From: Bacteroidota bacterium
Lineage (GTDB): Bacteria > Bacteroidota > Bacteroidia > Flavobacteriales_D > Crocinitomicaceae
Assembly: GCA_016192075.1 (NCBI GenBank)
Contig: JACPUU010000021.1
Location: 62,001-126,000 of the forward strand
Length of the DNA stretch: 64,000 bases
Direction: 5' to 3'
In this document: positions 13,977 through 15,345 of the stretch, piece after piece
Layout of the letters: each line of letters begins with the position of its first letter
Numbering within the stretch: position 1 is the stretch's first letter
The notes under the pieces: generated by a model
The model's database searches: none
Told to the model about the DNA's origin: nothing
The model's input: only the letters and a program-made list of their open reading frames with translations
Made by a program: the position numbers and the translations under genes

Positions 13977-14054
13977 TCCTAACCACATCGATTCCGATCT
14001 GTCAAATCAGTCGAACAATGCCGCAGGCTGGCACTTAATTTCTATCTTTTTCGA

Positions 14055-14106
14055 AATCAGTAAGCGCTTAGTCCCGCACATGCGGGACTCTAACCAACTG
14101 AGCCAA
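14055..14106 (-). pseudogene. tRNA-Asn-like D-arm fragment with GTCCCGCA palindrome (third copy)
   Basis: On the minus strand TTGGCTCAGTTGGTTAGAG (14088-14106) matches the D-arm region of tRNA-Asn, then runs directly into the palindrome GTCCCGCACATGCGGGAC (14071-14088). No anticodon arm or T-arm follows. The fragment forms the last codons of the GIY-YIG gene at 14068-14373. Confidence 0.75.
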
Positions 14107-14373
14107 TTTCTTTTGGGGAATAAAGTCAGGATCTATCAACATTCCGATAAGTCGCTGGCTTTTTTGTTTTTTAATCAGGCGTTCCACAACCAAGGCATCA
14201 GATCTTTCCGGTGAAACTGAAAAAACCGCAACCAATTCCCAGTCGGCATATTTTCCGGTGGACGCTTCTGTTTTAACGGTATTATGCTCAAGTAACCTTC
14301 TCCAGGGATCAGAAGAATGGCCTACATAAAACTGACTGTTTTCTTTGGATTGTATTATATAGATATAAAACAT
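14068..14373 (-). CDS. GIY-YIG nuclease-domain protein, copy 2
   Basis: 101 residues. The ATG at 14373 is chosen because the protein then begins with the family's MFYIYIIQS strand; the open frame upstream is translated tRNA/terminator sequence. Motifs: YIY and YVG (the GIY-YIG pair), Arg in DPWRRLLEHN, and catalytic Glu in VERLIKKQKS. This group (UPF0213/COG2827-like) is usually 80-100 residues; function is unclear. The last dozen residues (KKLAQLVRVPHVRD) are encoded by a tRNA D-arm fragment plus palindrome rather than by family sequence. Closely similar to the copy at 14492-14797. Confidence 0.85.
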   Translation of the reverse strand: MFYIYIIQSKENSQFYVGHSSDPWRRLLEHNTVKTEASTGKYADWELVAVFSVSPERSDALVVERLIKKQKSQRLIGMLIDPDFIPQKKLAQLVRVPHVRD

Positions 14374-14390
14374 GGATGCTAGCGTATAAA

Positions 14391-14424
14391 AAAAAGAGTG
14401 TGACGCTTTCGCTCTCACACTCTT
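14391..14424 (-). terminator. terminator after the tRNA-Asn-like pseudogene
   Basis: On the minus strand AAGAGTGTGA pairs with TCACACTCTT, followed by eight T. It lies directly between the broken tRNA and the start of GIY-YIG copy 2. Confidence 0.8.
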
Positions 14425-14436
14425 AATCTGTTTTTG

Positions 14437-14531
14437 CTCCCCCTTCAGGACTTGAACCTGAGACTCCCGCAATCGCGGGACAGGCCTCTGATTAATCCCG
14501 CAGGTGCGGGACTCTAACCAACTGAGCCAAT
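14437..14531 (-). pseudogene. tRNA-Asn pseudogene interrupted by two palindromes
   Basis: On the minus strand the D-arm (GGCTCAGTTGGTTAGAG), the 3' side of the anticodon arm (TTAATCAGAGG) and the T-arm plus 3' acceptor (TCAGGTTCAAGTCCTGA, AGGGGGA) match the intact tRNA-Asn at 14832-14905. The 5' acceptor strand is gone. The anticodon 5' part is replaced by TCCCGCACCTGCGGGA, and a second palindrome (TCCCGCGATTGCGGGA) is inserted before the T-arm. It cannot form a cloverleaf. A terminator follows. Confidence 0.85.
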
Positions 14532-14797
14532 TTACCTGATGGAAGAAAATCATGTGCTAATAAACGAAGAATAAATTGTCTACTCTTTTGTCTTTTTATA
14601 AAGCGTTCTATACGTAATGCATCTGCCCGACTTTGTGACACCTCAAAAACGGCTACCAAATGCCAGTCGGTATACTTTCCCGTGTATTTGTCGGTGCTTG
14701 CAGTATTATGTTCAATCAATCTTTTCCAGGGATCGGCAGAATGCCCAACATAAAATTGACCCGTACATTGCGATTGTATGATGTAGATATAAAACAT
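14492..14797 (-). CDS. GIY-YIG nuclease-domain protein, copy 1
   Basis: 101 residues, starting within the T-tract of the tRNA-Asn terminator. GIY-YIG motifs: YIYIIQS, FYVGHS, catalytic-type Arg in DPWKRLIEHN and Glu in RIERFIKRQKS. As in copy 2, the C-terminus KLAQLVRVPHLRD is translated from a tRNA D-arm fragment and a palindrome, ending at the TAA of TTAATCAG in the tRNA pseudogene. Members of this domain family cut DNA in homing endonucleases and UvrC, but the small stand-alone proteins have no agreed role. Expression could be by read-through from the tRNA promoter. Confidence 0.87.
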   Translation of the reverse strand: MFYIYIIQSQCTGQFYVGHSADPWKRLIEHNTASTDKYTGKYTDWHLVAVFEVSQSRADALRIERFIKRQKSRQFILRLLAHDFLPSGKLAQLVRVPHLRD

Positions 14798-14799
14798 AA

Positions 14800-14826
14800 A
14801 AAAAGCCGGTGATCAGACCGGCTTCG
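14800..14826 (-). terminator. terminator after tRNA-Asn
   Basis: On the minus strand AAGCCGGT pairs with ACCGGCTT around a 7-nt loop, followed by six T; the ATG of GIY-YIG copy 1 lies in the T-tract. Confidence 0.8.
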
Positions 14827-14831
14827 TTTTG

Positions 14832-14905
14832 CTCCCCCTTCAGGACTTGAACCTGAGACCCTCTGATTAACAGTCAGATGCTCTAACCAACTGAGCTAAG
14901 GAGGA
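14832..14905 (-). tRNA. tRNA-Asn (GTT)
   Basis: 74 nt. Acceptor stem TCCTCCT/AGGGGGA (one U.G), D-arm AGCTCAGTTGGTTAGAGC, anticodon stem/loop TCTGA-CTGTTAA-TCAGA with anticodon GTT, and T-arm TCAGG-TTCAAGT-CCTGA. The discriminator is G, as usual for Asn; CCA is not encoded. It is the only intact member of a three-copy tRNA-like series. Confidence 0.95.
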
Positions 14906-14927
14906 ATTTTTTCGCTAAAAGCGAGCG

Positions 14928-14960
14928 CAAATATAGACAATTCCTGACGAATTAAGCAAA
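14928..14960 (-). promoter_or_regulatory. candidate tRNA-Asn promoter (TTTG-N21-TATATTTG)
   Basis: On the minus strand TATATTTG at 14928-14935 is a perfect -7 box with TTTG at 14957-14960, 21 nt upstream. The tRNA begins 22 nt downstream of the -7 box. Confidence 0.6.
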
Positions 14961-15055
14961 TATTATCTCAAAAAAAGAAAAGTGCTTTAAAAATACGGCT
15001 TCTACACAAATCAAGGGCTTCAAATAGAAGATTTTACATTTTTTTGAAAACCCCC

Positions 15056-15345
15056 GGGTTACCTTTCAAAAAACCTGACATATACCTATTGAGCCTTCAG
15101 CAGCTCACACTTGAAACAAACGAATTCATTTTGCAAATTCGGCACTTGCATCGAATTCGGCCCGAAAGTCTCTTTGTACCTTCAGGCAGTTTCAACTAAT
15201 GTAACGGCAAAAGTCTTTCACAGAAGTTGAAAGACTTTTGTTTTTTTGATAAGGCAGGGTTACCTTTTAAAAAAGCAGACATACATACTCAGATTAACAG
15301 TTTAATTAGATTACCCGGCTTTAGCAATCAACACTTAATATTCAC
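15056..15345. repeat. diverged direct repeat flanking an orphan terminator
   Basis: GGGTTACCTTTCAAAAAACCTGACATA (near 15057) and GGGTTACCTTTTAAAAAAGCAGACATA (near 15257) begin two diverged copies; both continue with a CTTnAGCAnn(T)CAACACTT-like block. The gap 14906-15452 contains these copies, an orphan terminator and the tRNA promoter; no ORF in it looks real. Confidence 0.55.
15208..15247 (+). terminator. strong orphan terminator
   Basis: Perfect 13-bp stem CAAAAGTCTTTCA / TGAAAGACTTTTG with a 7-nt loop and T7 tract. There is no plus-strand ORF upstream for more than 1 kb (nearest is the small ORF ending at 13976), suggesting a small RNA. Confidence 0.8.

Follow-up and report, generated by a model that had tools for sequence, protein, structure and literature searches.

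Free-standing GIY-YIG homing endonucleases that reside at tRNA genes are known from phages. SegB of phages T4 and T6 cuts in tRNA DNA, and microhomology between the 3′ end of segB and the 5′ end of the tRNA drives tandem amplification of tRNA–nuclease units; in T6, SegB amplifies tRNA-Tyr against a tRNA-cleaving defence (PMC13096335). A survey of SegB found frequent co-localisation with tRNA genes and no isotype preference (PMC13096335). Intronless homing by free-standing endonucleases has also been described (PMC2988022).

The window analyzed here is a stretch of 64,000 nucleotides from a Bacteroidota genome, in which two small GIY-YIG ORFs follow a tRNA-Asn gene on the minus strand. The reading that we favor, and consider probable, is that the window holds a tandem pair of minimal tRNA-gene-targeted GIY-YIG cassettes, which would behave like an intronless homing element on bacterial chromosomes. 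SegB is the strongest relative in behaviour, as both systems have a GIY-YIG gene at tRNA genes and tandem tRNA–nuclease units. SegB belongs to phages, whereas the window-type cassettes lie on a bacterial chromosome, and unlike SegB they combine a bare GIY-YIG domain of ~100 aa, isotype-specific clades, and a palindrome-disabled tRNA copy in a unit of ~0.3–0.45 kb. A tblastn search of the window ORF against the phage collection gave no match, and PHROGs homing-endonuclease matches were weak (E 0.004–0.016). The window ORFs share the catalytic core and its conserved residues with free-standing GIY-YIG homing endonucleases, and here, too, a single target locus (slyD/tRNA-Asn) had both occupied and empty alleles. 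Because a DNA-binding module is absent and cleavage is inferred, we do not class them as proven members of that group. A targeted search of the open-licence literature found no description of a tRNA/GIY-YIG/palindrome pattern on bacterial chromosomes.

Other known systems were similar in part. UPF0213 (COG2827) is likewise a stand-alone GIY-YIG domain of ~100 aa and gave the best PDB sequence matches (1zg2, E 1.6e-10; 1ywl, E 6.8e-9). Unlike the tRNA-linked ORFs, UPF0213-like ORFs in the same genomes (L001, L014–L018, L020, L021) had no tRNA neighbour or remnant; the two groups look distinct in sequence and context, although the domain tree is built on 71 columns and resolves few of its forks. 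A ~46-nt repeat occurs in several tandem copies 3′ of one such UPF0213-like gene in the window's own genome (L001:1820-2045). SLX1 and HIGLE have the nearest folds (Foldseek E 1.9e-4 to 1e-3), which suggests hairpin or branched DNA as a possible substrate; unlike the window ORFs, they are eukaryotic repair enzymes with partner or extra domains and are not mobile. Integrative elements that target tRNA genes through tyrosine recombinases regenerate a full tRNA and leave a displaced fragment, as here. Unlike them, the cassette has an ORF of ~100 aa, no recombinase, and multiplies in tandem; no tyrosine or serine recombinase ORF was present between the tRNA copies of the window.

Organization of the Window Locus

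All features described below are on the minus strand. A Bacteroidota-type promoter-like element (TTTG-N21-TAtaTTTG, 14928–14960), a pattern match with a putative function, lies 5′ of the tRNA-Asn gene, and the region 14040–15010 contained no other match to this pattern. Apart from the intact tRNA-Asn(GUU) gene (14831–14905), the genome (4.65 Mb, 99.94% complete) contained no full-length match to tRNA-Asn. Intrinsic terminator 1 (14798–14822), formed by a hairpin at 14822–14805 and a T-run, abuts the start codon of GIY-YIG ORF1 (101 aa, 14492–14797). The dead second tRNA-Asn copy, tRNA′, has a D-arm fragment (14512–14530) inside this ORF that codes for the ORF1 C-terminus. It is followed, still inside ORF1, by the palindrome TCCCGCACCTGCGGGA (14496–14511), which takes the place of tRNA positions 26–35, the 5′ strand of the anticodon arm. 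A second palindrome, TCCCGCGATTGCGGGA (14465–14480), occupies the variable-loop region, and the 3′ part of the copy (14436–14464) is identical to positions 47–75 of the intact gene.

Intrinsic terminator 2 (14388–14422; hairpin 14422–14396 and T-run) is unrelated in sequence to terminator 1. GIY-YIG ORF2 (101 aa, 14068–14373) has 66% protein identity with ORF1, and the spacing between the two ORFs is 424 bp. Its C-terminus is encoded by D-arm fragment no. 3 (14088–14106), next to which stands a third palindrome, TCCCGCATGTGCGGGA (14072–14087); the 3′ half of this tRNA copy is gone. Both ORFs matched the PF01541 profile well over the cut-off (48.9 bits for ORF1 and 51.8 bits for ORF2). The original prediction had read this order (tRNA-Asn, terminator, ORF, tRNA pseudogene, terminator, ORF, D-arm fragment) from the letters alone, and the features were found where it had placed them. 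It had also derived the last dozen residues from tRNA and palindrome DNA, which is correct: D-arm, palindrome, and anticodon-proximal tRNA sequence together encode the 12 C-terminal residues (LAQLVRVPHxRD) and the stop codon of both ORFs.

A graded loss was visible along the tRNA-Asn copies of the window. The degraded second copy still matched the Rfam tRNA model with 25.9 bits (cut-off 29). As the intact gene is the sole full-length match in a nearly complete genome, the decayed copies are the redundant ones; the predicted progressive tRNA loss applies to them and not to the single functional gene, which is intact. The Rfam scan of the locus returned only tRNA, plus one sub-threshold match on the opposite strand. 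Upstream, 5′ of the promoter region, a 43-nt repeat occurs at 15040–15082 and 15241–15283 (77% identical, 201 nt apart).

The Encoded Protein

The PF01541 domain covers residues 1–73 of the ~101-aa ORF, and the remaining tail is encoded by tRNA and palindrome DNA and ends with low model confidence. The ORF is a bare GIY-YIG domain, with no DNA-binding module beyond the catalytic one. In 45 sequences, Y5, Y16, G18, R26, H30, E64, and K68 were invariant; among them, Y5, Y16, G18, R26, and E64 are conserved catalytic positions. The predicted structure was a confident GIY-YIG-like fold (mean pLDDT 86, pTM 0.79). Foldseek ranked the HIGLE and SLX1 catalytic domains closest, followed by UPF0213 BH0048, with I-TevI at rank 14; the profile search placed UPF0213 at the top and SLX1 next.

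All 30 computable ORF pairs showed dN/dS below 1 (30/30), with a median of 0.12, and the pair ORF1–ORF2 had a dN of 0.22 with saturated dS. Judged by these ratios, the small GIY-YIG ORFs are under strong purifying selection, which rules out that they are decaying pseudogenes. Phage, plasmid, and viral-contig collections contained no relatives of the ORF; an origin from phages or plasmids was dismissed on this ground, and the collections pointed to no vehicle between cells. A role as a defence system was also dismissed, as PADLOC gave an E value no better than 0.035.

Linkage to tRNA Genes across Bacteroidota

The arrangement was found again in the same genome. At one locus (L002) the order was pseudo-tRNA-Phe, tRNA-Phe, GIY-YIG ORF, and a tRNA-like remnant with a repeated terminator; at another (L003) a GIY-YIG ORF adjoined tRNA-Arg sequence in a tandem array at the contig end. 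The general pattern is a small GIY-YIG ORF (~90–100 aa) on the same strand just 3′ of a tRNA and its terminator; behind the ORF comes a second, broken copy of that tRNA, with an arm swapped for a short palindrome and often with a duplicated terminator as well. In a PF01541 search of this genome and 19 relatives, 15 of the 20 genomes had at least one small GIY-YIG ORF linked to a tRNA or tmRNA.

The presence of GIY-YIG ORFs near tRNA genes elsewhere had been set beforehand as a test of the original prediction. From 199 distinct GIY-YIG matches in 91 genomes, 158 ORFs had sufficient upstream sequence. A same-strand tRNA or tmRNA was located within 250 nt upstream in 81 of these 158, which is not a phylum average because most matches were picked by similarity to the window ORF; on the opposite strand the count was 0 of 158, and the strand contrast (81 vs 0) is independent of that choice. 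The tRNA or tmRNA mostly ended 40–65 nt ahead of the GIY-YIG domain. Upstream isotypes included Asn, Val, Met, Phe, Asp, Leu, Arg, Ala, Pro, His, and Ser, together with tmRNA. The association with tRNA genes and fragments, whose absence would have counted against the predicted repeating unit, is thus clear, strong, and specific for strand and isotype. The prediction is partly supported; the link is not confined to tRNA-Asn, since a dozen isotypes are concerned.

When both flanks could be classified as a tRNA or a fragment, the isotype agreed in 76 of 79 cases. Agreement was 49/50 for an intact tRNA upstream with a fragment downstream, 19/19 for fragments on both sides, and 8/8 for a fragment upstream with an intact tRNA downstream. 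There were two mirror ARRANGEMENTS, with the upstream copy intact and the downstream copy broken in 50 cases and the reverse in 8, such as Gly and Leu in G172, Ala in G033, and Arg in G206. An intact copy on either side is consistent with an element that enters a tRNA gene and regenerates one functional copy, and is a poor fit with an ORF standing behind a tRNA by chance. On the GIY-YIG domain tree, the isotype label changed 27 times (minimum 12, shuffled mean 84.8). As far as this tree tells, the ORF clades are isotype-specific, and Asn is one among many isotype-specific families.

A scan for the Asn family in named genomes gave 79 loci, with an intact tRNA-Asn upstream in 62, an Asn-like fragment in 8, no upstream tRNA in 5, and a contig edge in 4. 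None of the 79 had an upstream tRNA other than tRNA-Asn. The scan included orthologues in cultured, non-pathogenic Algoriphagus, Pedobacter, Zeaxanthinibacter, and Psychroflexus. As one of the two query peptides was the tail encoded by the D-arm, loci with that junction were favoured; this choice introduces no bias for the upstream tRNA. One Asn-family cassette was observed on a contig labelled as Gammaproteobacteria (L310, a Thioalkalivibrio MAG record), probably a mis-binned Bacteroidota sequence.

Small GIY-YIG ORFs of the KYLKSGSGKAF type were also seen 149–325 nt behind tmRNA on the same strand (L009, L039, L047, L054); the one in the window's own genome (L009) has a degenerate look. They were not counted as proven members because no duplicated tmRNA sequence occurs 3′ of the ORF.

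The Palindrome in the Broken tRNA Copy

The TCCCGCNNNNGCGGGA palindrome occurred three times in the 64-kb window and never across 100 shuffles. The 4.65 Mb genome had five sites of the form TCCCGCN2-6GCGGGA: three at the window locus, one in 23S rRNA (L010), which we take to be a natural rRNA helix, and one intergenic. These counts rule out a chance arrival of the Asn palindrome at this locus as one copy of an abundant genomic repeat. REP/RAYT systems also tie palindromes to a small nuclease-like gene; unlike TnpA_REP, a Y1 HUH enzyme, the gene here is GIY-YIG, and the Asn palindrome is low in copy number.

Palindrome arms of at least 6 bp were found in 48 of 60 interrupting segments, compared with 2.6 expected from shuffles; the segments came from 54 units whose upstream tRNA is intact and recurs downstream over 20 nt or more. 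Most isotype families carry their own palindrome in the dead tRNA copy, at a fixed tRNA position; both the position and the sequence differ by family. The Asn-family palindrome TCCCGCANNTGCGGGA takes the place of tRNA positions 26–35 and the Val-family palindrome TCCCGATGCATAGCAATCGGGA that of the anticodon arm; the Met-family palindrome TCCGTCAGCTGACGGA is at positions 38–47 and the Phe-family palindrome CCGCCGCGGCGGA within the T-loop. A palindrome joined to tRNA D-arms in other genomes, which the original prediction had proposed to look for, was observed in 61 of the 79 Asn-family loci, where TCCCG directly follows the D-arm, in several Bacteroidota classes.

The palindrome codons GTC, CCG, CGG, and GAT showed a same-amino-acid codon identity of 0.96–1.0 against a mean of 0.43 for the ORF body in 57 units; the units were chosen by peptide ending, a choice that does not bias synonymous sites. 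As synonymous sites are frozen in the palindrome while the ORF body varies, the constraint acts on the nucleic acid and not on the peptide, and conservation of the C-terminal tail for the protein is ruled out. In the same 57 units the arms of the Asn palindrome were fixed and its two centre bases were variable. This pattern would also suit an explanation in which the palindrome is a working substrate: a structure-specific GIY-YIG nuclease would cut its own palindrome in hairpin or cruciform form and thereby drive unit release and array turnover, in the manner of TnpA/RAYT on REP hairpins, with tRNA specificity arising from flanking homology in repair. The presence of an own palindrome in most families and the nearness of the branched-DNA nuclease SLX1 and of HIGLE in fold and sequence point the same way. 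However, palindromes of the same kind also exist away from GIY-YIG ORFs, and the SLX1 likeness is at the domain level only. We regard this explanation as unlikely.

A few loci differed from the usual layout. At L251 (~1500–1650) a D-arm/palindrome junction was present 5′ of an intact tRNA-Asn with no ORF between them, as if the order were reversed or the unit lost. At L207 and L217 (genomes G278 and G149) a ~280 bp non-GIY insert separated tRNA-Asn from a palindrome-bearing tRNA′ fragment; this insert, common to two species, is possibly a non-autonomous cargo or a replacement.

Proposed Mechanism

The best-supported account for mechanism and ALTERNATIVES is a tRNA-gene-targeted homing cassette with expansion and collapse through direct repeats. 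On this sequence-based account the cassette would be selfish and would multiply as [ORF–tRNA′–terminator] units, with cutting and homing inferred. The small nuclease would cut one type of tRNA gene, tRNA-Asn in this case, at a position within the tRNA that is specific to the family. In the repair, cassette DNA bearing a portion of the tRNA would insert the ORF, rebuild a full functional tRNA on one side, and leave the interrupted copy tRNA′ on the other. An essential single-copy tRNA would survive because the insertion regenerates a functional copy. At the interruption, the family-specific palindrome would replace an arm and mark the end of the cassette; it probably abolishes the recognition site or acts as a structural substrate of the nuclease. 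Since the tRNA 3′ half and the terminator form direct repeats, recombination could then multiply or delete units, and its products would be arrays, truncated last units, and scars that lack the ORF. ORF1 is probably expressed by terminator read-through from the tRNA promoter, which would keep the nuclease low; the terminator takes up the 33 nt that separate the tRNA from ORF1, which makes read-through the simplest route.

The main weakness of the homing account is self-immunity: unless insertion removes sequence that belongs to the target site, the nuclease would be expected to attack the intact upstream tRNA as well. The bare GIY-YIG domain, lacking the DNA-binding module of known homing enzymes, also counts against it, as do the absence of ORF relatives from phage, plasmid, and viral-contig collections and the partial agreement of the Asn-family tree with host groups.

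That the arrangement recurs at a dozen tRNA gene types throughout Bacteroidota suggests an undescribed family of minimal tRNA-gene-dependent mobile elements. We propose more tentatively that they form an autonomous class of ~0.3–0.45 kb, made of a bare GIY-YIG gene and a palindrome-tagged tRNA fragment, with one tRNA type per family and tandem growth across the phylum. If this is true, minimal mobile genes are widespread and hidden in Bacteroidota chromosomes, parasitising essential tRNA genes without harm, and would rank among the smallest self-mobilising protein-coding elements. Homing and tRNA amplification of the SegB type would then reach beyond phages to the chromosomes of bacteria. In annotations, the arrays probably appear as stray ‘GIY-YIG nuclease family proteins’ alongside tRNA pseudogenes, and they may disrupt assemblies. 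The minimum size of a homing element, the survival of a host with a nuclease aimed at a single-copy essential gene, and the retention of a palindrome in a dead copy would become testable, and the family may be a source of compact nucleases with tRNA-gene specificity.

Alleles, Arrays, and Alternative Explanations

A comparison with empty sites in close relatives had also been proposed, and in genus g21 the orthologous slyD/tRNA-Asn locus has occupied, empty, and scarred alleles. The locus is occupied in G212, G080, and G181 and apparently empty in, for example, G272 and G280. G068 has an ORF-less scar of tandem T-arm/palindrome/terminator remnants, and G279 has a collapsed array that is ~90% identical to the occupied G212 across the query. 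Arrays terminate in truncated ORFs. Identity between the terminators on the two flanks of an ORF reached 80% or more in 21 of 40 units, compared with 2 of 230 comparisons between genomes; the two terminators were either near-identical or unrelated, and the Asn family was again bimodal. Near-identical flank terminators are what local amplification would leave; unrelated ones would result if a cassette brought in a foreign terminator or if the divergence is older. On the Asn-family tree the host class label changed 18 times (minimum 5, shuffled 31), with MAG labels that are not fully reliable; the tree partly tracks host groups, so vertical inheritance is probably substantial.

These data bear on ordinary tandem duplication, which the original prediction had named as the simpler alternative. 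In this explanation a GIY-YIG gene came to lie behind a tRNA by chance, blocks were copied by slippage or unequal crossing-over, and the extra tRNAs decayed independently. It predicts arrays with truncated last units and identical flank terminators within a locus, and it suits the graded loss among the window copies. However, one and the same accident must then have happened at a dozen isotypes, whose ORFs are clade-specific, and random decay does not place a family-specific palindrome at one tRNA position phylum-wide. In half of the loci the terminators flanking the ORF are unrelated to each other, and the intact tRNA can stand before or behind the ORF. The explanation also does not account for the conservation of the palindrome at the codon level, the purifying selection, or the empty and scarred sites. 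Plain duplication followed by decay is therefore very unlikely.

A domesticated function, in which the host retains the nuclease for amplification or repair of tRNA genes under stress, as T6 SegB does with tRNA-Tyr, has the SegB precedent (PMC13096335), the strong purifying selection, and the tandem arrays in its favor. Occupancy is nevertheless uneven (a single genus includes both empty sites and scars), and amplification does not raise the functional tRNA dose, as the extra tRNA copies are disabled in nearly all units; we consider such a function highly improbable. A group I intron or another RNA was ruled out, as the only meaningful Rfam scores belong to the tRNA and its degraded copy and the upstream tRNA is uninterrupted. 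Set against the homing cassette, plain duplication, a domesticated tRNA amplifier, introns, integrase islands, and REP/RAYT are thus less likely or excluded.

Enrichment at contig ends was considered as proof of long arrays and dropped: 20 of 145 tRNA-linked ORFs and 5 of 54 other ORFs lay within 400 nt of the left contig end, an unconvincing difference and a hint at most. At L189 (G163 C21, 302362 and 296467), a truncated GIY-YIG ORF behind tRNA-Asn has a matching C-terminal piece ~6 kb off, which suggests one Asn cassette divided by a larger insertion. At four further loci (L194, L195, L212, L220), a phage-type-integrase-like ORF (MATLxLVLDKRRxxKDGTYP) begins within a few hundred nt behind the same tRNA-Asn in several relatives; this tRNA is seemingly a shared landing site.
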